Below are positions 34,068-50,243 of a stretch of DNA of 64,000 nucleotides, piece after piece (position 1 is the stretch's first letter; the number at the start of each line of letters is the position of its first letter). Both the position numbers and the translations under genes were made by a program. The DNA is from Caulochytrium protostelioides (Eukaryota; Chytridiomycota; Caulochytriomycetes; Caulochytriales; Caulochytriaceae): positions 48,278 through 112,277 of the forward strand of contig ML014165.1 in the NCBI GenBank assembly GCA_003615045.1. Reading direction: 5' to 3'. Under the pieces are notes generated by a model, which was not told the origin of the DNA, searched no databases, and was given only the letters and a program-made list of their open reading frames with translations.

Positions 34068-37000
34068 TTACGGCGTCATGGCAGGCCGGCCACGGCCCCA
34101 GGCGCCCATGCGCTCGAGGTGCACGGCCGGCTCAACGAGCGGCGCGACACCCAGGTGGCCGTTGCGCACGACATCCGCCGCCGTGGGGGCCGTCGTCGTC
34201 GCGCTATTCGTCGTGCGCGGCACGTGGTCTGGCTTGCCCGCTTTGGCGGGGTCGCCCAGACGGGGACTGCCTGCCATCATCGCGCCCGGCGCCGCGGCGT
34301 CATGTCCGGCATGGCGCGCCGGTAAGCCGGGGCCGCCGTGGTCGTGGCGCAGCCCGTCGTCGGTGCGGGAGGCGCTCTTGCTGCGGTTGTTCGCGACCGA
34401 GGACGCGGCCGTAGCCCACACGTGCGGCGGCCGCGGGTGCTGCAGGTGTGGGCCGACAGAGCGGCGGCCCGAGCGCGAGCCGTCGGCGAGGCGGTCGGTT
34501 GACGCCGAACCGTCTTGGTAGAGCGGCGGCACGTCGGCAGCGGTGGCTGCCGTCGCACCGCCGTGACGCCCGTTCGCCCACCCGGTGACGCGCGCGCGCG
34601 TGGGGCGTGTCGCCTCGTCGCCGGCGGCGGGCGCGGCGGCCGCCAACCCGCGGCCCTGCAGACGGACGCGGCCAAGACTCACGAGATCGGCCGAACTGCG
34701 CAGCCGTGCAGAGCCGCCGGGTGTCTCGCCGTTCAGCACAATCGTATCCGGAACCGTCGCGTCCGCGCCGGCTGAGGCGGCCGCCGCCGATGCGGTCGAG
34801 GATGCTGCGGAGGACGGGGACGCGTCGTGCGGCTTGGTGGGCAGCTTCAGCGCGGACACGCCGTTTGGCGAGGCCCACGGGTTCTTGGGGGGCGCCGTGG
34901 CGCCCCACGCGTGCAGCGGGGGCGGCCCGCGGCGCGTCAAGTCGAGGCCCGAGTCAGCCGGATCGCCTTGCAGCGTCGCCGTCGACGACACGGGCGCCGG
35001 CGGCGACATGTGGTCATGCGACACGAGCTGAACGTGGCCATGGTGCGGCATGCGGGGCGGCGCGCCCCCGTGGGCCGACATGAAGGGCAGCGGCGCCATC
35101 ATGGCCGCGGCATCATGAGGCGGCGGCATGGCGATATGGGTCGGGACCGAGGCCGGCGATGCGGCGATCGAGGAGCCCGCGGGGGGGCCTTCGTCCGACC
35201 CCGTCGTCCGTGGGCTCGCATCGAATGGTGGGGGGCTGGTGCCCGCCGTGCTGCGCGCATCCGCAGCGGATCCGGGCTGGGACATCGACCCGCTTGGCGA
35301 GGCGGTATAGGCCATCGAGAGGGCCAGCGGCAGGCCAAAGCGTGGCATGTCATCCAACGACGCGCTGGCCGGGGGTTGGTGGTGGACGTGGTGGTGGTGG
35401 TGGTGGTAGTGGTGGTGGTGGTGCGACAACGACGGCTGCTGCTGCTGTTGTGACGCTTTGTGCGAGCGGCGAGAGCCGGACGCCGGCGGCGGCATGAGGT
35501 CATGGAGACTGCTCATCGGGCCGGCGCGGGCGGTCCGTGATCCGTGGGGATGCACGCCACTGGTGTCATCGGCGCTGCCGCGACCATGACCGGCGCGCAT
35601 CCGCGATGACGAGCGCACCGGCGACAGCGGGTGTGTCTGCACGGCCGCGCTCTGCTGCTGCGTCGGCGCCTTCGTGTCACGGCGACCACACATGGATCGG
35701 CCGCGGCGCAGCGCACTTGAGTTCGAGCCCGTAGCGGCGGCGTGCTCATTGTTGCTCGTGCTATCGTAGGCCAGCCTTTCGTCCGGACCGAGCGAATGCG
35801 CACGCGGCGAGGTGCTCTGCACGGAGGCGCCGCTGCTGACGCGGCCCTGGGCGTTTTCTTGGCGCAGGTGGTGCACCATGCTGACATCGACGGAGAGAGC
35901 GCCATGACCAGCGACATGGTCGCCGTGAAGGCGAGCCACTGAGCCCGAAGTTGAGGCCGAGTTGCTCTGCAATACCGAGGAGGCAGGCTGCGGGCGCTGT
36001 TGAGGCCCAGACGTCGCCGCGTGATGGCTGGCTGGGGCAGGGTTCGTGGGAGCGGACGTCGGCGCCGCGACGCCCGTTGTCGTGCCCGTAGTGCTCGTGA
36101 ACTGGTTCAAGGGGTCGCCGCGACGCCATGGCGTGTGGTACTCATCGGCGCTCTTGGCGCGCTGGTGCGGTTGGAACACCTGGAAGTGCTGAACGTGCGG
36201 GACGTTTGGCGGCGTCTGGTGGGAGTGGGTCTGCTGCTGGGCATGTTCCTGCCGTGGCCCGCCATTCGAGCGGCCACCGTGGCCGTGACCGTGGCGGCCA
36301 TGCGGGTTCCAGGCGCCTGCGCTGTTTTGGTGGTGGCGACCCTTGTTGCTGTTGTTGCCATGGTGACGGGATGGTGTATAGACAGAAGGCGAATTGCCTG
36401 ACCACGAGGCATCGCCATGACCGCGGTAGTGATTGCCGCTGCTGCTGCCGTTAGCGCTGCCGCTACTGCTGTTCCCGTGATGGTAGTAACTGCGATTGCT
36501 GTGGTGGTTGCTGTTGTTGCTGGAGTAGGCAAAAGGGTACCCGGACGCGGGGCCCGCGAACGTCGGGGAGGGCTGCTCGCGACGGAGATGCCAGTACTCG
36601 GAGAGGCAGGGGTGAACAATCGTCTGGAGCATCGACATCGACACGTCGTCCTGCGACGTGTGGGCGTGCGGTGAGGATGAAGAGGAAGGGATCGGGCCCT
36701 GGGTCGAGCCACGACGGCCCTGCGTCGTGACAGTCGTCGTTGTTGTTGCCGTCGACGTCGTCGTCGATGTGTTAACGCCGGCGGTGTTGGGAGCCGCGAG
36801 GATGCTGGAGGTATCAAACGGATCCGTGACTGTGGCCCAGGTGTGGTGGATAGCGTCGTCGATGACCGCCACGTCGTCCTGAGTCAGGTCCCGCTCGGAG
36901 AGCTCCTCAAACAATGAGCAGCTACGCTGCACTTCCGACAGCAAGCCCAGCAGCGACAGAAAGGTCACGGCATTGGTCAGGTTGCGGACGGGGTTGAAGG

Positions 37001-40000
37001 GCTCCTCGACGCAAAGCCAGCGTGACAGGCTGCTGATGTGTTTGCCCCAACCTTTGTCCGCCTTAGGAATCAGCTCGCCCGCACGGACCGAGAGAACCTG
37101 GCGCTCGTAGGGGAGTTCATGTGCCATCCAGTGGAAAAATTCGACCACGAGCTCGGCCAGGGTCGGACCCCGCAACGACGCCGATTCGGCAAGCGACCGC
37201 ATGACTTCGGCCGAGGCGGGCGACATTGGCCGCGGCGATGCCGGCGGCGCGGGCGATGACGGCGACGTAGCGATCGTTGTGGCGTCGGTCTTGGCTTTGC
37301 CGTTCTTCTTAGCTGCGCGGGGACGCGTGCGGGCCGGCGATGATTTGCCCGAGGCTTTGCTGGACCGACGCGGCGTCGATGGCGCCGCGACATCGCCGCT
37401 GGCGCCATCATCATCCGTGTCCGGCGACGAGGTCGTGGCCGATGCGGGGGTGGGGTCCAACTCAGGAGCCGAGGCCAACGGCGGCGAGTGGCCATGGCCG
37501 CGATAATCATGAGATACCCGTTCATCGTCGGTCGCGGGGCCCAGCGTGCCTTCCGCCTCCGAGCCTTCCGTCACCGAGGCGGAGGGGGCGGCAAAGCGCG
37601 GTACATGCAAGAGGAGCGCCTCGTCCGAAACGTCACACCCGTCGCTCGACGACGACGACGACGAAACCGCCGATGCCCTGATTGCTACGCTGGCCGATGC
37701 GGATGGCGCCGCCAAGGAACGCGGCCGGTCCATCGCCTGAAGGTTCAGAGGCATCAGATGATGCAACGCATCACACCGCCTCTCGGGATCACCATCGCCA
37801 TCGCCGTCCGCGTCCGTAGCCGTGGCAGGCGCACTGGTCGTGCTTGGCGATAGCGGCGTCACGACCACGACATCGAGATGGAACGGATGCGTCGCATGGG
37901 TATCCGCCGCCAGCGCCGGACGGTCGTTGGATTTTGGATCGGTGCCGTCCAGCATGCCACCGCTGGGAATGGGCGGGTCGGCGCAGGCATCCATCACAGG
38001 GGTTTCCACATTCGCATCGTCGTCTTCGTCGTCGTCGGGGTGGATGCCGTGGCTGCTGCCCTGGTCACTCAGCGCGTGGCGCGAGTCGGCAGACGAATGG
38101 GCATTGATCGAGACTTCGTCGTCGTCCTCTTCGTCGTCGGCCTCATCACCGAGCAGACTCGCTGGCGCCGGGACCGGCTCTGCCGTCAACATCGCAGCTG
38201 CAGCGGCAGGATCTGAGGTGGCCGGCGAAGACGGCGGTCGCTGCTGACGGGCATGCCAGTCGGCAATCACGCGTTCGTCGTCCGCAAAGGCCACGTCGTG
38301 GCCTTCAATGTAGACCGGCACGCCCTCGCCACGGGCGAGTCGCTCGAGGTAGATGGCATGCAGCGACGGGATGATCCGGTGCGGACGCCGGGTTTGCAAG
38401 AAATTGAGCGCGATCATGCACCAGCCGTAACTCGAGATGGTGCCGGACTTGGCAGCATCAGCGAGGCCGCGCGCCTTTGCCCACGCTTTAACCAGGAACA
38501 AGAATGGCCGGACGCGTGGGTCCAGATCGGCGTATCGTCGAATGAGACGCGTGTTCTGTAGCGCCATCAAGTTGTTGATGTTGATATCACCGGCCAACGC
38601 GGTGGCCGGGTCAAAGAACTTGCAGATCGGCACTTTAGCCTTCGCGATGGTAAACACGTCCGTGAACTGCGCCGTGCGCAGGATATGGGCCACCGTGTGG
38701 ACTGTCACATGACCACAGTTAGTTTCAAGACAGAGATCGACATCGGAGCCGCGGCTCGAAAGACCGTTAGTCGACGAGCCGTAAAGGTGAATCTTGACAT
38801 AGGGTGGCGCCGTCGTCGCCTCGCCGGTCAGCGGATCGACCGTCGTCGCGCCGGGCAGCAAGGCTTGTTCGAAAAGGAGTTGCATTCGGTCCCGGAATGC
38901 ATAGCGCATCCGGATGTTATCGGCGTCAGCCGCCTGCACGGCGACTTCGCGGTAGAGATGCGCATTGAGGCGGTCAAGATAAACGGCGGGCAGCCGCTGA
39001 TGGCCGCAGCGGCGATGCGGTCGCGCGGCGACGTCAGCCGGCGACGTGATCGTAATCGTTGAAGCGCGGGCGGGCGCGGGCGTCGGGACAGACACGGATG
39101 GTACGGTGGTTGCGGGCGTGGTGACCTCCGGCAACGGCGCGGTAGTCGGATATGGTGGCGAAGTCGCGGCCGCGGCGGGCTCCACCGGCGATGACGGCTG
39201 CGTGTGCGCCGTATACAGCGGCTGCACGGGCGTGATGGCTTGGAGGACGCCGAAAGGAGGTTCTTCCGAAGTATGCTGCCGCAGGGCGCTAGCGACATCG
39301 GCAAAGCGCTCTTCGCCGGTCGGCTTGCTCGCCAAGCTGAGATCGGTGGCGCTGGGTGGCGGCAACATCTTGGCGCTGCCAACCGGATGGTGGTTGGCGT
39401 GCGTGGTCATGGTGCCAGCGTGGTGGGAGACGTTACTCCGCTTGTTGCCATGGTGGTGGTTGTAGTGAATGGGCTGCTGGTGGCCGTTGCTGACGTGGTG
39501 GTGGTGGTGGTGGTGGTGGTCTCTCTTGGCGGGCGACGCGTGGGCGGAAGCCGTGGTGGCGGCGATTTTTGGCGTTGAGGGAGAGCTGGCGTCTTTCGGG
39601 GACTTGTTGGGCGTTGAGGCACGCGGTACCGGCGAACTGGCTCGGAGCGGCACGGCAGTAGGAGCCGAAATTGGGGTTGCGGAGGTGGCGGTGACGGGAG
39701 CCGAAGTCGAAGCCGAAACCGAAGCTGACGCTGGAGCCGGATGGGAAGTCGAAGCGGGAGAGGATGCCGCCGCGATCGCGGCGGCGGGTGCTGTCACCGT
39801 CGTTGTGATCAGGGAAGCCGTTGGTAGGATCGCTGGCGCCGTAGGGTTGCCCGTGACATCAGCCACAGGCGCCAGCGAGATACTGGACGCCGATGCCGAT
39901 GCCGATGCCAATGCCAATGCCGATGCCGATGCCGATGCCGATGCCGATGCCGATGCCGATGCCGGAGTGGACGCCGGTGTGGACGCCAGAGCTGAGGCCG

Positions 40001-40151
40001 AAGCGGTGCGCCCGGCAGAAGACTCGGGGGCTTCGGGAGAGGCCGACCGCAGGGTGACGGCGGGAGGGGCCGCGCACGTGGAGGCGGGCGGGGTCGAAGG
40101 CGGCGGCGGCGAGGCAGGGAGGACGGAGCCGGGGCCGGTGCCAATCGACAT
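34068..40151 (-). CDS. non-canonical poly(A)/poly(U) polymerase, Cid1/TUT type, 2027 aa
   Basis: RNA 3'-nucleotidyltransferase of the Cid1/TUTase group. The palm holds the catalytic motif YGSSTNGLSSRGSDVDLCLE (near residue 455; two Asp of the triad) and the third Asp in GDININNLMALQNT. Next come RYADLDPRVRPFLFLVKAWA and SYGWCMIALNFLQTRRP. The PAP-associated half (VVEFFHWMAHELPYE ... SLSRWLCVEEPFNPVRNLT) resumes only about 400 residues later, after an acidic, Ser-rich insert. A further 900 C-terminal residues are disordered, rich in Ser, His, Asn and Pro. The frame is open to 40358, but the ATG at 40151 (MSIGTGPGSV) suits the composition better. Whether it adds A or U cannot be told from what is visible. 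The insert splits a domain that is continuous in other family members. Confidence 0.85.
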   Translation of the reverse strand: MSIGTGPGSVLPASPPPPSTPPASTCAAPPAVTLRSASPEAPESSAGRTASASALASTPASTPASASASASASASASALALASASASASSISLAPVADVTGNPTAPAILPTASLITTTVTAPAAAIAAASSPASTSHPAPASASVSASTSAPVTATSATPISAPTAVPLRASSPVPRASTPNKSPKDASSPSTPKIAATTASAHASPAKRDHHHHHHHHVSNGHQQPIHYNHHHGNKRSNVSHHAGTMTTHANHHPVGSAKMLPPPSATDLSLASKPTGEERFADVASALRQHTSEEPPFGVLQAITPVQPLYTAHTQPSSPVEPAAAATSPPYPTTAPLPEVTTPATTVPSVSVPTPAPARASTITITSPADVAARPHRRCGHQRLPAVYLDRLNAHLYREVAVQAADADNIRMRYAFRDRMQLLFEQALLPGATTVDPLTGEATTAPPYVKIHLYGSSTNGLSSRGSDVDLCLETNCGHVTVHTVAHILRTAQFTDVFTIAKAKVPICKFFDPATALAGDININNLMALQNTRLIRRYADLDPRVRPFLFLVKAWAKARGLADAAKSGTISSYGWCMIALNFLQTRRPHRIIPSLHAIYLERLARGEGVPVYIEGHDVAFADDERVIADWHARQQRPPSSPATSDPAAAAAMLTAEPVPAPASLLGDEADDEEDDDEVSINAHSSADSRHALSDQGSSHGIHPDDDEDDDANVETPVMDACADPPIPSGGMLDGTDPKSNDRPALAADTHATHPFHLDVVVVTPLSPSTTSAPATATDADGDGDGDPERRCDALHHLMPLNLQAMDRPRSLAAPSASASVAIRASAVSSSSSSSDGCDVSDEALLLHVPRFAAPSASVTEGSEAEGTLGPATDDERVSHDYRGHGHSPPLASAPELDPTPASATTSSPDTDDDGASGDVAAPSTPRRSSKASGKSSPARTRPRAAKKNGKAKTDATTIATSPSSPAPPASPRPMSPASAEVMRSLAESASLRGPTLAELVVEFFHWMAHELPYERQVLSVRAGELIPKADKGWGKHISSLSRWLCVEEPFNPVRNLTNAVTFLSLLGLLSEVQRSCSLFEELSERDLTQDDVAVIDDAIHHTWATVTDPFDTSSILAAPNTAGVNTSTTTSTATTTTTVTTQGRRGSTQGPIPSSSSSPHAHTSQDDVSMSMLQTIVHPCLSEYWHLRREQPSPTFAGPASGYPFAYSSNNSNHHSNRSYYHHGNSSSGSANGSSSGNHYRGHGDASWSGNSPSVYTPSRHHGNNSNKGRHHQNSAGAWNPHGRHGHGHGGRSNGGPRQEHAQQQTHSHQTPPNVPHVQHFQVFQPHQRAKSADEYHTPWRRGDPLNQFTSTTGTTTGVAAPTSAPTNPAPASHHAATSGPQQRPQPASSVLQSNSASTSGSVARLHGDHVAGHGALSVDVSMVHHLRQENAQGRVSSGASVQSTSPRAHSLGPDERLAYDSTSNNEHAAATGSNSSALRRGRSMCGRRDTKAPTQQQSAAVQTHPLSPVRSSSRMRAGHGRGSADDTSGVHPHGSRTARAGPMSSLHDLMPPPASGSRRSHKASQQQQQPSLSHHHHHYHHHHHHVHHQPPASASLDDMPRFGLPLALSMAYTASPSGSMSQPGSAADARSTAGTSPPPFDASPRTTGSDEGPPAGSSIAASPASVPTHIAMPPPHDAAAMMAPLPFMSAHGGAPPRMPHHGHVQLVSHDHMSPPAPVSSTATLQGDPADSGLDLTRRGPPPLHAWGATAPPKNPWASPNGVSALKLPTKPHDASPSSAASSTASAAAASAGADATVPDTIVLNGETPGGSARLRSSADLVSLGRVRLQGRGLAAAAPAAGDEATRPTRARVTGWANGRHGGATAATAADVPPLYQDGSASTDRLADGSRSGRRSVGPHLQHPRPPHVWATAASSVANNRSKSASRTDDGLRHDHGGPGLPARHAGHDAAAPGAMMAGSPRLGDPAKAGKPDHVPRTTNSATTTAPTAADVVRNGHLGVAPLVEPAVHLERMGAWGRGRPAMTP
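39889..39963. repeat. (GATGCC)n hexanucleotide repeat
   Basis: Tandem GATGCC/AATGCC units. On the minus strand they encode alternating Ser-Ala and Leu-Ala near the N-terminus of the nucleotidyltransferase. Confidence 0.9.
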
Positions 40152-40607
40152 GGAAGCGACGTGCGACGGGCAGGAGCGCCGGCGGCGTCGACGGTGTCGA
40201 GGCGTCGCTCGCGGGCGGTGCACGGGGCCCTGACCGCGTGTCAAGAGGACCGTGGCCGAGGACCGAGTCCCGCAACAGAGGGCAGCGGTGCTGTTCTCGC
40301 TCTCGTACAAGTTCCGGAGCGCGGAGGACAGCAGAGAAGCGTGACCGGCCAATTCCAAGTAGCGCTGACACGTGGCTCAGCGGAGGATCAAGGGCGGGTA
40401 CGAGGCTCCTCCTCTCGATTCTCGCGCGCGAACGGCGTTGAATCGGGTCGCTCGGCGGTCGTGATCGGTACGGCGAAGACCAAAGTGGGGGTTTGGAACA
40501 AAAAAAAGGGGGGGACACTAAGTGGCCACGTCAGGAAGCGGCGAGCGGACCCGTATATGGGATCACAAGCAGACCGTGTGATCAAGTCTACGGAAATGAG
40601 ACATACA

Positions 40608-41458: not shown

Positions 41459-43019
41459 TGACAGCCGTCGGTGGACGGCGTGGGTGGCGCAGCAACCGCG
41501 GCTGCGGACAAAACTAGCCGCGGATGGCCGACCAAACACCGCGACGCCGTGCGATACGACGTGGAGGGTGGACGCTCGCGAAGCAGCGATCGCGGCGCAG
41601 AGGCCGGAAGCAACCTGGCGCACGTGGCCTCAGGGATCTCACGTGCTCGCACGTGGGCCGGACGGGTCGTCGGTCAGACGATTCCGAGTATGCAACGATT
41701 GAGCGCGGCTCCCGAAAAAGGGGCTGAGCGAGCCAGCAGAGCGGGATCCGTCACACCCGAGGCGACGGTCGATCGTGGACTGGCAATGATGGCGACGCCG
41801 CGAGGAGCCGACCTGAGCCGACCACCAAGGTCGTATGAAATGAAAAGAAAAAACAACGATGCAATGCTCGTTGTTGGTCTCGAGTCACAGCCGTTCACGA
41901 AGCGTCACGGCAACCGTGGCTTCGTCAGTGCTGTGGGGTCGCGAGTGGTTCAAGGTGTCATGACGCGATCCAAGATATGTGCACCAAGCCATACCCATGG
42001 GCGTATGACCCTTAATGGGCCTGGCTTGTGACCGCGATGCAGACCCTCTGAGTCCCACCAGGCCCGATCGTGGCGCAACGTGAAGGCGGGATGACCTGAA
42101 CACCAACACATGATATAGACGTTGCCCAAGGCCCGGGCGCCTGCGCGGAAGGCATCTGAGCGGGTATTCCTTCCGTGGCGCGGGTGGGACGGAGCGACGG
42201 CCCGGCGAGCTCGTCTGGCCCCATTCGCCGCCCCGGTCCATTCCACGGTCCATCTTCCATGCTTGGACGCTGGCTCGGGCGACGCCGACGGCGTGTCGAT
42301 GGCGACGAGCAGCGGGCATCGAGCGCTGATTCAGGCGCAGGCGCTCACGCAGACGCAGCGTGTCGTCTTGGGCAGGCTCCGCCACACGGCATCGGCGTCG
42401 GCATGGCCCGGGCCCTCCCGCGTCGCATCGGCGTCGCGGCAGACAGGTCCGACCGGTCGGACTGTCTCCGAGCACTCGCACGCACGAGCCGCTCCCAGAC
42501 AACACGGCACTCTACGGCGCCCCTGTCTCCGACGCATGGTCTCCGCTGACGACGCCATCCGACGGCGGACGGCGGACGGCCGAGAGCCCCCCCGTTCGCC
42601 GCTCTCGAACCATCACAGAACACTTGGCAAGAAAGTGTGTTTCACCGCCGCCGCCGCCGCCGTGGCCGCGATGGCGACGAGCGACCCGCGGCGACACGAG
42701 CGCGCGCCCATCGAGTCGCCGCTCGCCGAGTCGGCACCTTCCGCGTCGGCATGCTTGTTGCCCCATGAGGGACCCAGTGGGACCTACAAGCATGGCGTAT
42801 TGCCATCACGGCAACGTGGCTTGGCAATGAACCGTTATCCTACTGAGGAAATGAGATTGAGAGAGTAGAGAAGGTTGATAGACAAAGTTGAGGAGCTCGC
42901 CTCTGGCGAGCGACATACTTCGATCGTCCGTCGCCTATGGACGGCTGCAGCCTGAGCTTCCGGCGACCGCCGACTGTCGCTACTCATACGCTGAGGATCT
43001 CCGCAGGTCGGTCCCTGCG

Positions 43020-44150
43020 GTTCATGCCGTGGCTGGGCGACCTGTCGCCGGGGTTTCCCGCGACTGCCTTTCACCGCGAAATGCTTACTGCGCCCCTCGC
43101 CGGTCTTCGGACGACACCACGGCTGAGCCATGTGGCGGTCACCCCTTTCGTCGGCCGGTCGTTTGTCTTCCGAAACATGGGGCCCACACAGCAAGAACAG
43201 CACGACAGGCGTATTGCGGTGGGCGGCCTTGGAGGCCCTGGGCGCAACGGGGCCACACCAACATCTTTATCGCCATGGTGGGGTCCAAACGCCAGATCGT
43301 CAGCTGGAAGCTGACATGAAGCTGACACGAAAACAGTACTATGTGGAAGCCGGCATGAAAGCCGCATATCAGCAGTCAGACTTGGCAGCGCCATTTGAAA
43401 GAGCCGCTGCAGCGGCCGTCAGAGGTCAGCATCAAAGGCACAGCGCCCGCCGCGCACCACCGCTTCCTGGAGGTGTGACTCGCCACGGACGAGCCGCTGT
43501 GGGCCGAGTACATGAACCCGCGCTGGGCATGCCAGCGCCTCCGGCTATACGGTGGCAAGCAGCGCGGGTTTGCCCCGTTCTTCAGCCGCGTCGCCAAGGG
43601 GGGCGGCCACGGAGATGGAGCCCGTGGTCGCTGAAGTGGTGATCGCTTATGGCGCCTCCAAATTGGCCCCGGGGGGCAAGGGCAAGATTGCCATCTCGAC
43701 CGCTCGGGCGTACAAGGCGTACGCCCATCGGTCCCGCACCGTCCTGGCCGACGACTTCCGGACGGCCCAGATACATGCCGAGACGAATCGGGTCCTGAGC
43801 AAAATGGAAGAGCCCGGGACCCAACAGCCGTGCCGATCTCTCGCGCGTCCTGGGCGCGCGCCCACCCGACCGCGCCGAGGGCGATCAACCGGATCCGCAC
43901 GACCCGAGTGTATGCCCCGACGCATGTGATCGTAAAACCCGGGCAACGCCGGAGGACCCCAATTCGAGGCTCGCTGTGGTGTAAAGCCACCAACCGCAAG
44001 TTTGTGAACCGCGATCTCGATGCCGCGATGTGCCTCCGACCCTGCCTGGGCGTCCCCGTCAGACGGCGATATACCGCAACCCCGGGCATGGGCCACTGCA
44101 GCCCAAGATCGGCAAACTTATCCGACACGGAACCAAATTACGCGCTGCCT
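43020..44150 (+). pseudogene. decayed Fanzor/TnpB-like RNA-guided nuclease gene
   Basis: Fragments of one protein appear in order on the + strand but in changing frames. From 43233: GGPGRNG, where a RuvC-I Asp-Pro-Gly is expected. Then, one frame over, HTNIFIAMVGSKRQIVSWKL (43254-43313). Next LTRKQYYVEAGMKAAYQQ (from 43322), then LWAEYMNPRWACQRL (from 43497, after an in-frame TGA). Then VVIAYGASKLAPGGKGKIA and VLADDFRTAQIH (43636-43780), and VYAPTHVIVKP with LWCKATNRKFVNRDLDAA (43905-44030), matching the RuvC-III N-R-D-x-(N/D)-A-A. Last, LQPKIGKLIRHG (about 44098-44133). This order, with K-L-T-x-x-x-Y-Y after the DPG segment, the Y-G-x-x-K-x-x-x-x-G-K-G block, the F-R-T element and the C-terminal R-D-x-N-A-A, is that of eukaryotic Fanzor proteins, relatives of transposon TnpB. 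At least six frame changes, the stop, and loss of the first Asp and most zinc-knuckle Cys show it is dead. The N-terminal limit is uncertain. Confidence 0.7.
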
Positions 44151-45650
44151 CTGCGCCCTGGAGGGCTCTCCCCCTGGAGGTCAGCACGGAGGGCACGGGG
44201 TGCGTGTTGGGTCGTGGAGGGTGGGCCCAAAGTCTCTTTAAAATGAATATAAAGATCGCGGTGGAAAACGCGAAACGCAGACGACTCCCTTGATTGTTCC
44301 TTGCTGTGTCATCCTGGGGGTTTCCTCGGTTCGGTCTTTGTTGTCGGCTCTGCCAGCTCCGCCATTGCACCATGAGTCCATGGCCAGCGAGCCGTGGAAA
44401 CGGGTCGGCTTGGATGCGGCTCGGGCTTTTTTTTTTGGTTCGGGACGCGGGTGCACACACGAATGGTTCTGTGTTTTCGGCGCGCTTCGATACCACCCAG
44501 ATTCCAGAAACGGGTAAAAGCGCCAAGGATGCGAGTCGGAACGCCAGCTGCCGAAGCCGCCGGCGAGATGGCCTGATCCTCCTGTGGTTGGGCCTTTCGC
44601 GATCGGCGCCGTCGAGTCGTGTTTGGGCGGATGATTTGTCTTGCCATTATCCCAAAGGACGGCTTCTCTCCCTCTTTTTTTCCTTTTCGGAGCTTCGCCT
44701 TCCGCCCCCCTTTTTTGCCCCTTCTCGCGAAACTCCGCTCGGGGGCCACTGTTTGCGGGGGGGCGTGCCTTGTCGTGTGACGCGGGATGCGCGATGCAGG
44801 CGATCGTTGCCGATGGCCAAGATGGTGTGGATCCCTTGCAGATCCCCTGTCCGCTTCCATGCGGTCGTTCGACGGCGGCGGGCCGCGACTTCCCTCTTCG
44901 ACTCCCGCTTCAATTTCGATGAATCACGAGCGATGATCATCACAAACACGTCGCACGCGACTCACCCGCACGCGTCTGCTCTGGCTCTGGCTCTGCTCGA
45001 CGCGTTTGCTCGAGGATGCCGATGCCGATGACCAGCGTCGCACCCATCGGGGAACGATGGAACCGCCGAAGCACGAACCGCGGTATCGAGCCGGAGGGTC
45101 GCACAGAAGGACGCCGTGGTCGATCTCCGCGAACGAGGGTGGTAGGGCGGGGCACCGGGGACTCAGCGGGCACCGGCAGGAGACGCGGCGCCAGCGGCCC
45201 CTGCTCGGGTCGGAAGGCGGTGGGTTCACCCGCCAACGAAGGAAACGGAGGGCAGCACCCGAAAACTGGAGCGAGCGAGGCCGTCTGAACCTTAATTCGT
45301 GTCCTCCACCCACACCCACCCCCGCCGCTGGCCGGTATATCGGCGCGCCTAGCGGTGGCCGATCGTCCACGCCATTCGAGAAGATCGGCCAGGCCGTGGC
45401 AGGCACGATCCAAGGGCTCCATGCTGCCCCTCGGGACCTCGCCGCACTGTCCGCCCGGCTCGCTCCTTGCCGCCCGCAGCATCCGATCGGCTCGTCTTCT
45501 GCGCTCCAAGGGCTCTGGGGTCGCTCCCTTCTTGAGCCACGAGCGACGCGCGAGGAGACGCATGCCGCCCCTCCCGGCGTCGCGACTCACATCGTGGCAC
45601 GTGGCGCCTCGTACCGCGCCGTGCTAGGCCATCTCCCACCCGCCAGAGCC
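44151..45650. other. intergenic, upstream of LIM-RapGAP gene
   Basis: No recognised gene. Several poly-T/pyrimidine tracts (about 44429-44438 and 44670-44720) lie on the + strand. The LIM-RapGAP frame is open from 45006, but the part before 45651 has no domain and is probably 5' UTR. Confidence 0.45.
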
Positions 45651-48600
45651 ATGGTCGCGCCGCCGTCGCCGCCGTCGCCGCCCGCCTGCGCCGACTGCTT
45701 GAAGCCCGTGTATCCGCTCGAGGCGATCGCCGCCGGCGCCAAGCACTTCCACCGCGGCTGTCTCCGCTGCGCGCGCTGCCGCCGCCTCCTCACTTCCGCG
45801 TCCTACATCGTCGCCGGCAACGAGATCGTCTGCATGGTCCACTCACGCCCCGGCTCGGCCGCCGCCTCGCCGACCGCCTCCGCCACGGTCTCTGCTTCGG
45901 CGACGACCGACCGTCCGCGCCGCGCCGCCGACGCCGACGGGTTTACCGCCGAGGGGCTCGCCGGCGGCTACCACTCGGCCGGCGACCTCCTCGCGGCGGC
46001 GGCCACGACCGCCGCGCGGGATACCGCTGCCCGGGGAGACGCCGCCGCGTGGCGGTCGAGCGACCAGCTGCGCGCCGCGCCGCACAAGCCGAGTGCCGAT
46101 GCCCACAGCCGCAGTCGTCACGACGCCGACGCCGACGGCGCTGGCGATCACGACGTCGATGCCGACGCCGACTTGACAACGCCGCTGACGGCGTCCGGAT
46201 CGGTGCTCTCGCCACGCGGTTCGCAGAGCCGGCGGCAGCCGCTGTCGGCCCGGCCACAGCATGCCGTTTCGGGCGGCCTCCGCCACCCGTCATGCGACAC
46301 CGTCGCGCCGGCATCTACCGCCTCGCTCTCCGCGGCGCTCTCGACCGCCCAGTCCGCCTCGCTTCTCTCGCCCAAGATCGAGGTGTATATCGAGCAGAAC
46401 TTTGTCCGGAACCGCGTGCTCTCGTTCAGCGACCTCGGCACCCCGAACACCGTGGACAGCACCCGCCGCGGCCTGACGGGCGGCAGCCCCACGCCGACCC
46501 GGACGCCGTCGTTGGGTACGACCGCCACGGCGGCCGCCGTGGCGACGGCGCTCACGGCGTCGCCGGCCACGACGCCGATGGCGTCGCCGACGCTTGCAGC
46601 AGCCCCCACCGCCACGATGCCCGCTCTAGCAACACCGGCCGCGGGGGCATCGGCCGCGGGGGCATCACCCGCGGTGACGGCGGCCACGATTTCGACAAGT
46701 CCTGCTGCGCCGCCCACGCCGTTCGCCGTCGCTTCCGCGCTTCTCAGCGGCGCCTCAGACCGGCGCAAGTCCGCGAATGCACCGCATTTCGCCTCGACGC
46801 TCGCGCTTTTTTCGCTCTCCAGAACCTCGATCATCCAGGAAGAGACCGGCACGCGCGCTGAGAGCCGAGAGTCGGACGGGAGCCTCGCGAGCCATGTTGC
46901 GGACGGCAGCGTCGCAGCCCTCGTCACGGACCGGCAGGCCTGGAAGGCGGCGAGCGCACCCGAGACGGCGCCCGAGACGGCACCCGAGACGGCGGCCGCG
47001 ACGGCAGACGCCACGGCGTCGTTCTTGCCGGAGCGCACGGACGCCGACGGCCTCGGTGACCTCAGCGCGTCCTCAAAGAGCCCGCGGGGCCGCGGGCTCC
47101 AGGTCAACACGGCGCCGGCGCCCGCGGCACCGGGCGACGCCGGTGCTGTCCCCAACAACACAGGGCCGTCGTCTGCGACGCCGACGACGGCGGCGGCAGT
47201 CAACGCCGCGGGCTACGACACGACCTGGCTGCGGTTCGCGGAGCGCAAGTCGCCGCGCCGCTCGAGCGCCTCGTACGCCCACCACGGCGCCGGCTCGCCG
47301 GCGAGCGCCGGGCTCGGTGGCGTCGGTGGCGTCGGCGGCAGCGACCCCTACCACCAAATCGGCAAATCGCACGGCCGCGAGATCGTCGAGGCCATTATTC
47401 ACCCGAAGGACGTGATCCTCGACCCGCTGGACGCCGCCGGCTCGCTCGAGCTCCTGGTGCGCAACGCGTCGGACATGGGGATGCCCGGCTTCGAGCGGAG
47501 TTTCACGGGCCTCTCGCAGCGCTCGGGGCCGCACGTGGGGACGCCGGGCGGTGCTGTGGCCTCGGGTGCCGAGACGCCCACGAGTGGGATCGATCTCGTG
47601 ACGCGCCCGCTGCACGCGGCCGCCGCGGCGCCTTTCCGTCCCGAGGCCGGCTCGACCGACCTCCTGGACCACGCGGCGACCGCGCCTGTGAGCCCCGTGC
47701 TCGGTCCCCGCGGCGCGGCTCTCGGATCGGCGCCGCAGCCTCGATCAGCGCAGTCGCTGCTGTCAGAGCAGGGCGCGACCCCGGCGTCGGCCGCCGAGCC
47801 ATACCTCATCGTGGCGCTCGAGCGCTGCGCCGCGCTGGCGCGGTTCCTCGGCAGCAACGACGCGGCGCAACTCGCCGTCGGATGGCAGAACCTCCAGAAC
47901 CTGGTCGAGAAGATGCTCGCCGGCCTGAAGGAGACGCTCGAGCGCGCGGATCCGACCGTGAGCACGACGGGGATTCGGAGGCAGATGCAGGCGTTGCGGT
48001 CACGGCTCAAAGCCGACTCCAAGGACCCGTTCGACCAGATCGCCGCCGTCACGCTGAAGGACGTGGAGGCCCTCGCGGCATCCATCCGGCAGCTGCGTCG
48101 GGGTTTGCAGTGGTTTGAGCTTCATACCCTCATCGCGCGGCGGCCCGGGTACCGTCTGGAAGTGTGGAACCATGCCGCCGGGCCCGTTGACTACGGTCAC
48201 ATGGCGCTCGAGCATCTCGATACGGACGTTGACTGGTACCGGCACTACTTTGTGGGCAAAGTGCACAAGACCTACATCGGCCTCGCCCACAACGGCCCGG
48301 TGCTGATCTCGGTGGTCCACGAGTCGGCATCCTCGCCGTCGCCGGCGTCGTCGTCTTCAGGCAAAACGGGGATGGGCTCCTCGGAGATGCTGCATCGCTC
48401 GGGGCCGAACGAAATATCCTCGTCGTTGGCGGCGGAGGGCGCCCCCGGGCTGATCGCGCGATGGTCAAGCGGCGGCGTCCATGGCGCCTCGGCGACGGCG
48501 GGACCATCTGCACCCGTCACAGCCGCGGCCACAGCCACGGCCGCGACCACACAGGCGGCATTCTCGGCGCCAGCCGCCGCGCCCGTGACGCCGGCGCAGT

Positions 48601-50243
48601 GGCGCATCATTGTGCGGCAGAAGGAGCTACCGATCGTCCGCGGCGTGGTCCAGGACTACGTGCTAGCGCAGTCGAGCACGCTGTGGTCCCGGGGCACCAA
48701 CGCCAAGGCGGCGATCGAGCGGATGCTGAAGGACACGCACAAAATGACGAAGCTCCTCAAAACGAGTCAGGACGCGCAACTTGAAAAGCGCCTGCTCCAG
48801 TTGGACGAGCTGCAGCGCGTCAACCGCTACAAATTCGGCGTGCTGTATGTGCAGCACGGGCAGACGGCGGAGGACGCGTGGTTCGGCAACCACGATGTCG
48901 TTTCGCCCGCATGGGACGCCTTCTTGGCTGTCCTGGGCGACCGCGTCGCGCTCAAGGGCTATGCCGGCTCGTATGCGGCGGGCCTCGACACCAAGAACGG
49001 CCAGACCGGCACAGACGGGCTTCATACCACGTGGCGCGACAACGATGTCATGTTCCACGTGTCGACGTTCCTGCCATACTCTGCCACCGACCCACAGCAG
49101 ATTCAGCGCAAGCGCCACATCGGCAACGATATCGTCTGCCTCGTCTTCCTCGACGCCATCGCCACATGGCCGGATGGGCCCGGCGGGTTCGCCGACGCCG
49201 ATGTCGTTAACAACGCGATCGTGCCCTTCGACCCGGCCTTAATCGCCTCCCAGTTCCTCCACGTGTTTCTCGTCGTTCAGCCCGTCGTGCTCCAGTCCAC
49301 GGGTCGGCACGGTTGGCGCGTGATGGTCACGCGGCTCGAGGCCGTCCCGGCCTTCGGTCCGCCGCTACCGGACCCGCCCGTCTTCACCGATCCCGCCGCG
49401 CTGCACCACTTCCTGCTCGCCAAAATGGTCAACGGCGAGAACGCCGCCTACCACTCTCCGCGCTTCCGCAAGCCTCAGACCCGCACCCGCAACACGCTCC
49501 TCGACGACATCCTCACGCGGTACGGCGACCTGACGCCCGCCGAGCTCGTCGTTCGCTCGAGCGACGACGTCAGCTCGAGCCCCCCGCAGGTCGCGCCGGC
49601 CCGCGTCGCCCGCGCCATCTCGCTCGACCGCGGCACCGTTGCCGCGCGCCGCGGCGGTGGCAGCGGCGCCGCGGCCTCCGAGGCCCACGACGGCGATGAC
49701 GGCACCACGGCCGCCGCGGTGTCGCATGATCCCGCCGATCGCGGCGCCGCGGCACGGGATGCGGCGGCGGCCATGCTGAGTCCGGTGCCCGGCATGCTGC
49801 AAACGGGTCGCGCCTCGTCGACGGGCGCGATGCCCTCGGCGGGCGACAGCAGTCTCCGCGGCAGTACGACCGCGAGCCCGGCGGCCGCGACGGTGGTCGT
49901 GCCCCCCGCGACGACGAGCAACACCCCGTACGGCTCGCGACCGACGACGGCCCACGGCGTGAGCGAGGCGGCCGCGGCCCCGACGCCGGCGCCGGCGCCC
50001 GCCAGCCGCCGGCCGAGTCTGACGGCGTTCATGCTCGGTCATCCGTCGGGTCCGAGCACGCCCGGACCCGGCGGCGCGTCGAGCCTGCCCGCGAGCAAGC
50101 GGCCGACGTTGGTAAGCTCGCTGGCGTCGCGGTTCGCCCGACGGCCGTCGACGGTCACGCCGCCGACGGCGATGGCGGCCGCCGCGCCGAATGGGACCGG
50201 GCGGAGCCGCGAGTCCTTGGAGCAGCGGCATCCGACCAAATAG
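45651..50243 (+). CDS. LIM domain-RapGAP protein, 1530 aa
   Basis: Probable GTPase-activating protein for a Rap/Rheb-like small GTPase, with one N-terminal LIM zinc domain. The LIM domain is at residues 10-65 (CADCLKPVYP, KHFHRGCLRCARC, NEIVCMVH). The RapGAP catalytic domain is at about 1050-1270: RYKFGVLYVQHGQTAEDAWF, then NDVMFHVSTFLPY and RKRHIGNDIVCLVFLD, which holds the catalytic Asn-thumb residue (GND). VPFDPALIASQFLHVFLVVQ and LHHFLLAKMVNGENAAY follow. A conserved pre-domain (about 700-900) includes a helical stretch and LEVWNHAAGPVDYGHMALEH. The rest is Ser/Ala/Pro-rich. The ATG at 45651 is chosen because the LIM domain follows directly; the upstream open frame to 45006 looks non-coding. 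Convergent with RRP5. Confidence 0.88.
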   Translation: MVAPPSPPSPPACADCLKPVYPLEAIAAGAKHFHRGCLRCARCRRLLTSASYIVAGNEIVCMVHSRPGSAAASPTASATVSASATTDRPRRAADADGFTAEGLAGGYHSAGDLLAAAATTAARDTAARGDAAAWRSSDQLRAAPHKPSADAHSRSRHDADADGAGDHDVDADADLTTPLTASGSVLSPRGSQSRRQPLSARPQHAVSGGLRHPSCDTVAPASTASLSAALSTAQSASLLSPKIEVYIEQNFVRNRVLSFSDLGTPNTVDSTRRGLTGGSPTPTRTPSLGTTATAAAVATALTASPATTPMASPTLAAAPTATMPALATPAAGASAAGASPAVTAATISTSPAAPPTPFAVASALLSGASDRRKSANAPHFASTLALFSLSRTSIIQEETGTRAESRESDGSLASHVADGSVAALVTDRQAWKAASAPETAPETAPETAAATADATASFLPERTDADGLGDLSASSKSPRGRGLQVNTAPAPAAPGDAGAVPNNTGPSSATPTTAAAVNAAGYDTTWLRFAERKSPRRSSASYAHHGAGSPASAGLGGVGGVGGSDPYHQIGKSHGREIVEAIIHPKDVILDPLDAAGSLELLVRNASDMGMPGFERSFTGLSQRSGPHVGTPGGAVASGAETPTSGIDLVTRPLHAAAAAPFRPEAGSTDLLDHAATAPVSPVLGPRGAALGSAPQPRSAQSLLSEQGATPASAAEPYLIVALERCAALARFLGSNDAAQLAVGWQNLQNLVEKMLAGLKETLERADPTVSTTGIRRQMQALRSRLKADSKDPFDQIAAVTLKDVEALAASIRQLRRGLQWFELHTLIARRPGYRLEVWNHAAGPVDYGHMALEHLDTDVDWYRHYFVGKVHKTYIGLAHNGPVLISVVHESASSPSPASSSSGKTGMGSSEMLHRSGPNEISSSLAAEGAPGLIARWSSGGVHGASATAGPSAPVTAAATATAATTQAAFSAPAAAPVTPAQWRIIVRQKELPIVRGVVQDYVLAQSSTLWSRGTNAKAAIERMLKDTHKMTKLLKTSQDAQLEKRLLQLDELQRVNRYKFGVLYVQHGQTAEDAWFGNHDVVSPAWDAFLAVLGDRVALKGYAGSYAAGLDTKNGQTGTDGLHTTWRDNDVMFHVSTFLPYSATDPQQIQRKRHIGNDIVCLVFLDAIATWPDGPGGFADADVVNNAIVPFDPALIASQFLHVFLVVQPVVLQSTGRHGWRVMVTRLEAVPAFGPPLPDPPVFTDPAALHHFLLAKMVNGENAAYHSPRFRKPQTRTRNTLLDDILTRYGDLTPAELVVRSSDDVSSSPPQVAPARVARAISLDRGTVAARRGGGSGAAASEAHDGDDGTTAAAVSHDPADRGAAARDAAAAMLSPVPGMLQTGRASSTGAMPSAGDSSLRGSTTASPAAATVVVPPATTSNTPYGSRPTTAHGVSEAAAAPTPAPAPASRRPSLTAFMLGHPSGPSTPGPGGASSLPASKRPTLVSSLASRFARRPSTVTPPTAMAAAAPNGTGRSRESLEQRHPTK

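Follow-up and report, generated by a model that had tools for sequence, protein, structure and literature searches.

The 64,000-nucleotide stretch analysed here (hereafter the window), from the genome of the parasitic chytrid fungus Caulochytrium protostelioides, carries open reading frames with HMG-box, kinase, MIF4G/MA3, poly(A)-polymerase-like, LIM/Rap-GAP, RRP5 and mitochondrial-carrier domains. Between a nucleotidyltransferase ORF on the minus strand (34068–40358) and the LIM/Rap-GAP ORF on the plus strand (45006–50243) lies a decayed, internally deleted mobile element that carries a Fanzor gene. The element occupies 42796–44249 of the plus strand, limits that were set by DNA similarity to other copies in the genome (query 1297–2752 of window positions 41500–45500). 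Reading 5' to 3' along that strand, it consists of a non-coding, partly deleted leader at about 42796–43244, recognised by its matches to the leaders of other copies and containing no recognised domain or conserved ORF; an internal-deletion junction at 43245–43250; a frameshifted, Fanzor1-like pseudogene at 43251–44128 that represents the RuvC half of the protein; and a 3' untranslated part with the 3' terminus at 44129–44249, common to other copies. The junction was placed by alignment with four of these copies (L026, L027, L028 and L038) and by a profile match that begins at 43248, its exact base following from the alignment ends, and the coding end at 44128 was set at the aligned stop position. 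Several T-rich runs lie 3' of the element on the plus strand (44420–44720).

Three-frame translation from 42900 revealed ordered, collinear plus-strand peptide fragments spread over all three frames: firstly, GHTNIFIAMVGS..WKLT (frame from 42900); secondly, DMKLTRKQYYVEAGMKAAYQQ (frame from 42902); thirdly, TWQRHLKEP..FLEV*LATDEPLWAEY..RLRLYGGKQRGFAPFFSRVAKGGG (frame from 42900); fourthly, PVVAEVVIAYGASKLAPGG..VLADDFRTAQIH (frame from 42901); and finally, RVYAPTHVIV..RGSLWCKATNRKFVNRDLDAAM (frame from 42900), after which comes a short tail (frame from 42902). An earlier, sequence-only reading of this locus had proposed a Fanzor relic, and homology searches confirm it. All fragments align in order to one full-length metagenomic relative, P0002: with the entire protein as the tblastn query, 43251–44063 matches residues 373–595 (E 1.4e-30, 120 bits), whereas the same query scored at most 30.4 bits when the window was shuffled 20 times (single nucleotides within 200-base blocks), and the pseudogene as a whole corresponds to residue 373 through the C-terminus. 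At the DNA level, nine other copies of the same genome were combined into a profile, and an nhmmer search with it (cut-off 1e-3) identified 43248–44212 as its sole match in the 64 kb (E 1.6e-237). The interval first proposed for the relic, 43020–44150, stands as coding sequence over 43251–44128, while its left 230 bases (43020–43247) are leader rather than protein.

The window contains 256 mechanically called ORFs of at least 100 amino acids, and the query P0001 produces a second window match of 32.7 bits, so that the fragments might be read as chance peptide matches in GC-rich sequence full of long open frames. This reading is refuted by the margin of 120 bits over a shuffled maximum of 30.4, by the nucleotide-profile match, and by 148 other related places in the genome with 44–72% protein identity; we consider it vanishingly improbable.

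The window copy is inactivated, as had been suspected. Besides several frame changes, it carries an in-frame TGA at 43476–43478 where relatives encode tryptophan. The RuvC-I site reads Q-R-G and has lost its aspartate, the RuvC-II position at 43753–43755 is GAC (Asp) in place of the alternative glutamate that relatives carry in the motif DEFRT, and only the RuvC-III aspartate is kept (44013–44015, the last codon of NRD at 44007–44015). With two of three catalytic acidic residues gone, the window copy is, as it stands, unable to make a nuclease.

A decayed family in the Caulochytrium genome

The sequence-only reading had also suggested searching the genome with the window fragments. In the 20.9-Mb, 337-contig assembly, a 123-residue query made from two of them matches at least 150 places (all 150 scored, the best of 465 candidates); these include the window copy twice, and some are pieces of one copy. 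The copies sit on many different contigs. Residues 1–342 of P0002, its N-terminal part, likewise match at least 126 places (118 scored, from 209 candidates), the best of which contains three in-frame stops. The longest open copy read, L046, encodes 497 amino acids, has no N-terminal half and is out of register over a stretch between RuvC-II and RuvC-III. Among the copies scored, none had an open frame of full length. The possibility of intact relatives elsewhere in the same genome had been raised; none appeared among the places scored, and full-length relatives were found in metagenomic data instead. An intact copy in this genome is unlikely.

Of 48 copies, 42 have more than 500 aligned positions; these differ from the column majority by 10.3% on average, and the window copy, at 11.6%, is close to this value. 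Repeat-induced mutation was rejected as the cause of decay, as C-to-T rates over these 42 copies (0.051 at CpA, 0.063 at CpG, 0.080 at CpC and 0.058 at CpT) show no excess at CpA or CpG. A trace of purifying selection between the same copies was also set aside as weak, with divergence of 0.210, 0.174 and 0.226 at the first, second and third codon positions. One pair, L053 (contig C17) and L059 (contig C216), is 98% identical over 732 bases, against a usual level of 75–80%, and represents either a recent duplication or one locus assembled twice.

Several searches count against the Fanzor identification: PF07282 gave four matches in the genome, none over its cut-off; Pfam at E 0.001 found nothing in two relic ORFs; and single-sequence searches of the PDB returned no Fanzor, nor anything credible, from the raw window fragments or one relic ORF. 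A 554-residue Caulochytrium gene model, P0009 (CXG81DRAFT_23488), opens with a piece of a Fanzor relic, followed by unrelated sequence; its start has the same residues as an ORF of locus L005 on contig C6 near 206985, and the model is either a mis-annotation or an exonised relic. Individual copies vary further. Four (L015, L017, L024 and L047) carry a variable insert rich in Ala, Pro, Arg and Thr between RuvC-II and RuvC-III that is missing from others, and a repeated T-E-H-P / D-Q-rich peptide lies just before the DPG motif in L052 (2560–2690), L036 and L044.

Ends, leader and mobility of the element

Most fetched copies share one 3' point, marked by a motif like TTAAA-N-AATA that was not recognised in every row. 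In the window this motif reads TTTAAAATGAATA at 44237–44249, which places the 3' terminus of the element near 44249, and the window 3' end was recovered among the 29 matches of its own 80-base search. By contrast with the shared 3' end of the profile, reached by 53 of 67 chained matches, 5' starts range from column 2 to column 2136, a spread that partly reflects locus limits and copy choice, a few starts being contig or locus ends. Coverage of the protein shows the same gradient, the N-terminal depth rising from 16 places at residue 15 to 64 places at residue 280. When the genome was searched with a 191-base 3' end, 10 of the best 40 places scored (269 candidates) lay close to an ORF match of the same strand, and an eleventh lay by a weak PF07282 match; these were compared by hand, and the ORF places are a lower bound.

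In L052, about 1.3 kb of leader precedes the Fanzor start. The window leader is 78% identical to L052:28–292 and 73% identical to L052:613–721, both upstream of that start, and its right part is 91% identical to L026 and 87% to L027. Searched alone, it gave at least 47 matches (40 scored, from 61 candidates), nine of which begin at query base 27. At the window junction the leader is joined to the codons that follow the DPG of RuvC-I, and the same junction recurs in L026, L027, L028 and L038; in L029 the leader is joined at a different point. Since these four copies were picked as the best DNA matches to the window, the shared junction shows that the deleted form multiplied and says nothing of how common it became. 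The genome records the spread of a Fanzor element as 5'-truncated, internally deleted copies, and then its death.

How the element moved can be approached from the same anatomy. Graded 5' truncation combined with a common 3' end would fit target-primed reverse transcription by LINE enzymes of the same genome, the copies being retrotransposed; the genome does yield 19 RVT_1 matches (15 over the cut-off) and LINE-type ORFs, and many copies have A-rich 3' ends. However, many of these ends fit a fixed terminal motif and not a poly(A) tail, many leaders start at one left point (the nine of 47 rows noted above), and no tail longer than 13 bases was shared between the element and six reverse transcriptase loci, not all of which reach a LINE 3' end. 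Nor was there a target-site duplication signal in 33 copies (a mean of 5.42 versus 5.51 for mismatched pairs), a comparison of low power at this age. We regard retrotransposition as rather doubtful. The LINE-type ORFs of two loci, L063 and L065, include both endonuclease-like and reverse transcriptase regions, and one reverse transcriptase frame stays open for 1165 codons.

The Fanzor1 elements CRe-1, 2 and 3 of Chlamydomonas reinhardtii offer a different model: they are often truncated at the 5' end, carry internal deletions and keep their 3' ends, features that have been attributed to Helitrons (PMC3627910). The Caulochytrium copies share this anatomy and have a fixed 3' end, and no inverted terminal repeats were found in 42700–44350, as would suit a non-autonomous, rolling-circle element of the Helitron type. 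Against this, the genome returned no Helitron_like_N match, a result that is not evidence of absence because the control was silent too, and the expected 3' hairpin is only slightly commoner than in shuffles. That hairpin, by the 3' terminus and convincing by eye, was rejected as a feature: stems of at least four pairs occur in 27 of 39 copies versus 65% of shuffles, and stems of at least five in 18 of 39 versus 35%. A Helitron-like origin is a tentative proposal, which we favour over reverse transcription purely by analogy with the Chlamydomonas elements. No transposase partner of the element was identified.

In an alignment of 30 copies the 3' untranslated part is conserved, and we examined it as a candidate guide RNA. 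RNAalifold consensus folding of this part returned no pairs, and seven single 3' sequences fold only modestly better than their shuffles (z -0.3 to -2.0). For a hand-drawn stem, derived from a single sequence of the set and reduced to its better pairs, 82.7% of cells are paired, a value that 37 of 500 shuffles reached; both sides are changed in 11 cells (equalled in 5 of 500), and the covariation score is 0.152 (10 of 500). A control slide of this stem by +2, however, scores 0.162 with 18 both-side changes, above the stem itself. With support this mixed, we do not claim an omegaRNA structure. From what is known of Fanzor biology, the live protein would have bound RNA made from the 3' end of the element, and the RNA-guided protein would have cut DNA matching the flank beside that end; such cutting may have helped the element to persist, with another protein supplying transposition.

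Full-length relatives and the C4 zinc finger

We gathered 184 relative proteins, 173 of which were assessable for the motifs below, and aligned 24 of them (alignment A2). At E <= 1, the A2 profile matched two distinct sequences in the PDB, Parasitella parasitica Fanzor 1 (2.5e-16) and the Spizellomyces punctatus Fanzor (1.6e-10). A structural model of P0002 computed with A2 (pLDDT 90.6, pTM 0.85) has a Fanzor1 fold: in a Foldseek search of the PDB the first seven chains are Fanzor1, with SpuFz at 1.0e-21 (TM 0.68), PpFz at 3.1e-18 and GtFz at 1.1e-15, and the next matches are Cas12 proteins, from 3.5e-06. By sequence homology and modelled fold, then, the protein family is a Fanzor1-like clade, in keeping with the identity that had been predicted from the fragments. 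PF07282 recovers little of it, its cut-off being passed by P0081 only, of seven proteins scanned.

RuvC-I contains DPG in 164 of the 173 assessed proteins (the near-complete relics L052 and L044 read GNDP at this site). All 24 proteins of A2 have the alternative glutamate of RuvC-II (E535 in P0002) and the R578 and D579 of RuvC-III. A pattern of our own that resembles the published one but omits the cysteines, DPG-x-[DE]E-[aromatic or other]-[RK]-[TS][TS]-x-RD, fits 128 of the 184 proteins. Among the relatives listed, an organism name is given for three: a protein of Tetrabaena socialis, one of Chlamydomonas eustigma (without DPG) and the Caulochytrium fragment. Four others (P0112, P0115, P0159 and P0172) are encoded on long metagenome contigs, the longest 121–561 kb, and could separate eukaryote from giant-virus hosts.

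Viral proteins have this fold as well. In a viral library the best matches of the P0002 model were an unnamed entry at TM 0.82 (29% identity) and a Tetraselmis virus 1 protein at TM 0.78 (23%), and the window copy could therefore be imagined as part of an endogenised giant virus and not a fungal transposon. Yet the copies lie scattered across many contigs and share one element terminus, the ORFs that flank the window copy carry fungal-type nuclear domains, and viral contigs gave 600 pattern matches of which tblastn confirmed none. A viral origin is very improbable, and we retain the mobile element as the source of the relic.

The relatives depart from described Fanzors in one respect. A C4 zinc finger has been described as part of a strictly conserved Fanzor/TnpB motif (Bao and Jurka 2013, PMC3627910), and it is reported in many TnpBs and Fanzors and needed by a published search pattern (Yoon et al. 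2023, PMC10711439). In the family described here, 23 of the 24 A2 relatives have no CxxC between RuvC-II and RuvC-III, and a C-x(2-4)-C pair is missing from the zinc-finger region in 168 of the 173 relatives assessed (11 of the 184 were unassessable). Cysteine pairs are kept in five relatives, with two each in P0098 and P0099 and one each in P0105, P0155 and P0158. Among the 168 pair-free proteins, 153 are at least 550 amino acids long, and 145 of these 153 have DPG. The published cysteine-requiring pattern fits none of the 184 gathered proteins, and eight relic ORFs of this genome, inspected by eye, have no CxxC at that place.

Because fold and homology are Fanzor1-like but one feature of the strict motif fails, we name the family a zinc-finger-less Fanzor1-fold variant and not a standard Fanzor1. 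The pseudogene at 43251–44128, together with the leader that begins at about 42796 and the 3' end that reaches about 44249, is very probably a dead, internally deleted copy of a C. protostelioides mobile element whose live form encoded one Fanzor1-fold protein of about 620 amino acids without a C4 zinc finger. More tentatively, full-length Fanzor1-fold nucleases, RNA-guided and without this zinc finger, may form a broad clade in eukaryotes, represented in Caulochytrium, in the volvocine algae Tetrabaena and Chlamydomonas eustigma and in many environmental sequences; in this chytrid it would have reached a very high copy number and then died.

In the part of the literature covered, no prior description of zinc-finger loss in Fanzors was found, and an earlier report is possible; none of the papers listed mentions both Caulochytrium and Fanzor, and the available text of the 2018 Caulochytrium genome paper (PMC6784888) makes no mention of Fanzor or TnpB. 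The loss of the zinc finger is the interesting part of these observations, the relic and its copy number being ordinary, with old multi-copy Fanzor families on record. Should the 153 relatives cut DNA, enzymes of this class can do without the zinc finger, and there would be compact, zinc-free nucleases to test.

Comparison with known systems

Fanzor2 and the IS607 TnpB proteins belong to the same superfamily as the proteins described here. Neither was matched by the A2 profile in the PDB at E <= 1, and the structural matches beyond Fanzor1 are the Cas12 proteins (from 3.5e-06).

The closest known proteins are SpuFz1, PpFz1 and GtFz1, which are alike in fold over the whole length of the P0002 model (Foldseek 1.0e-21, 3.1e-18 and 1.1e-15, respectively); SpuFz1 and PpFz1 also show profile similarity to the relatives. 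All share DPG in RuvC-I, the alternative glutamate in RuvC-II and the aspartate of RuvC-III. They differ in that sequence identity is 12–17% and the window copy is dead. Moreover, SpuFz1 carries a CCCC zinc finger (Saito et al., PMC10432273), whereas 168 of the 173 assessed relatives are without the cysteine pairs.

As an element, the Caulochytrium family resembles CRe-1, 2 and 3 in carrying a Fanzor1 gene within copies that have 5' truncation, internal deletions and intact 3' ends; those elements, however, have introns, Helitron-like ends and often target-site duplications, for which the 33 copies gave no signal here. In age and abundance the nearer parallel is CMe-1A of Cyanidioschyzon merolae, for which PMC3627910 describes about 150 old, decayed Fanzor1 copies, approximately 80% identical to their consensus and without terminal inverted repeats. 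Although the host is different, both families have an unclassified carrier, and both are old, present in high copy number and without terminal inverted repeats.
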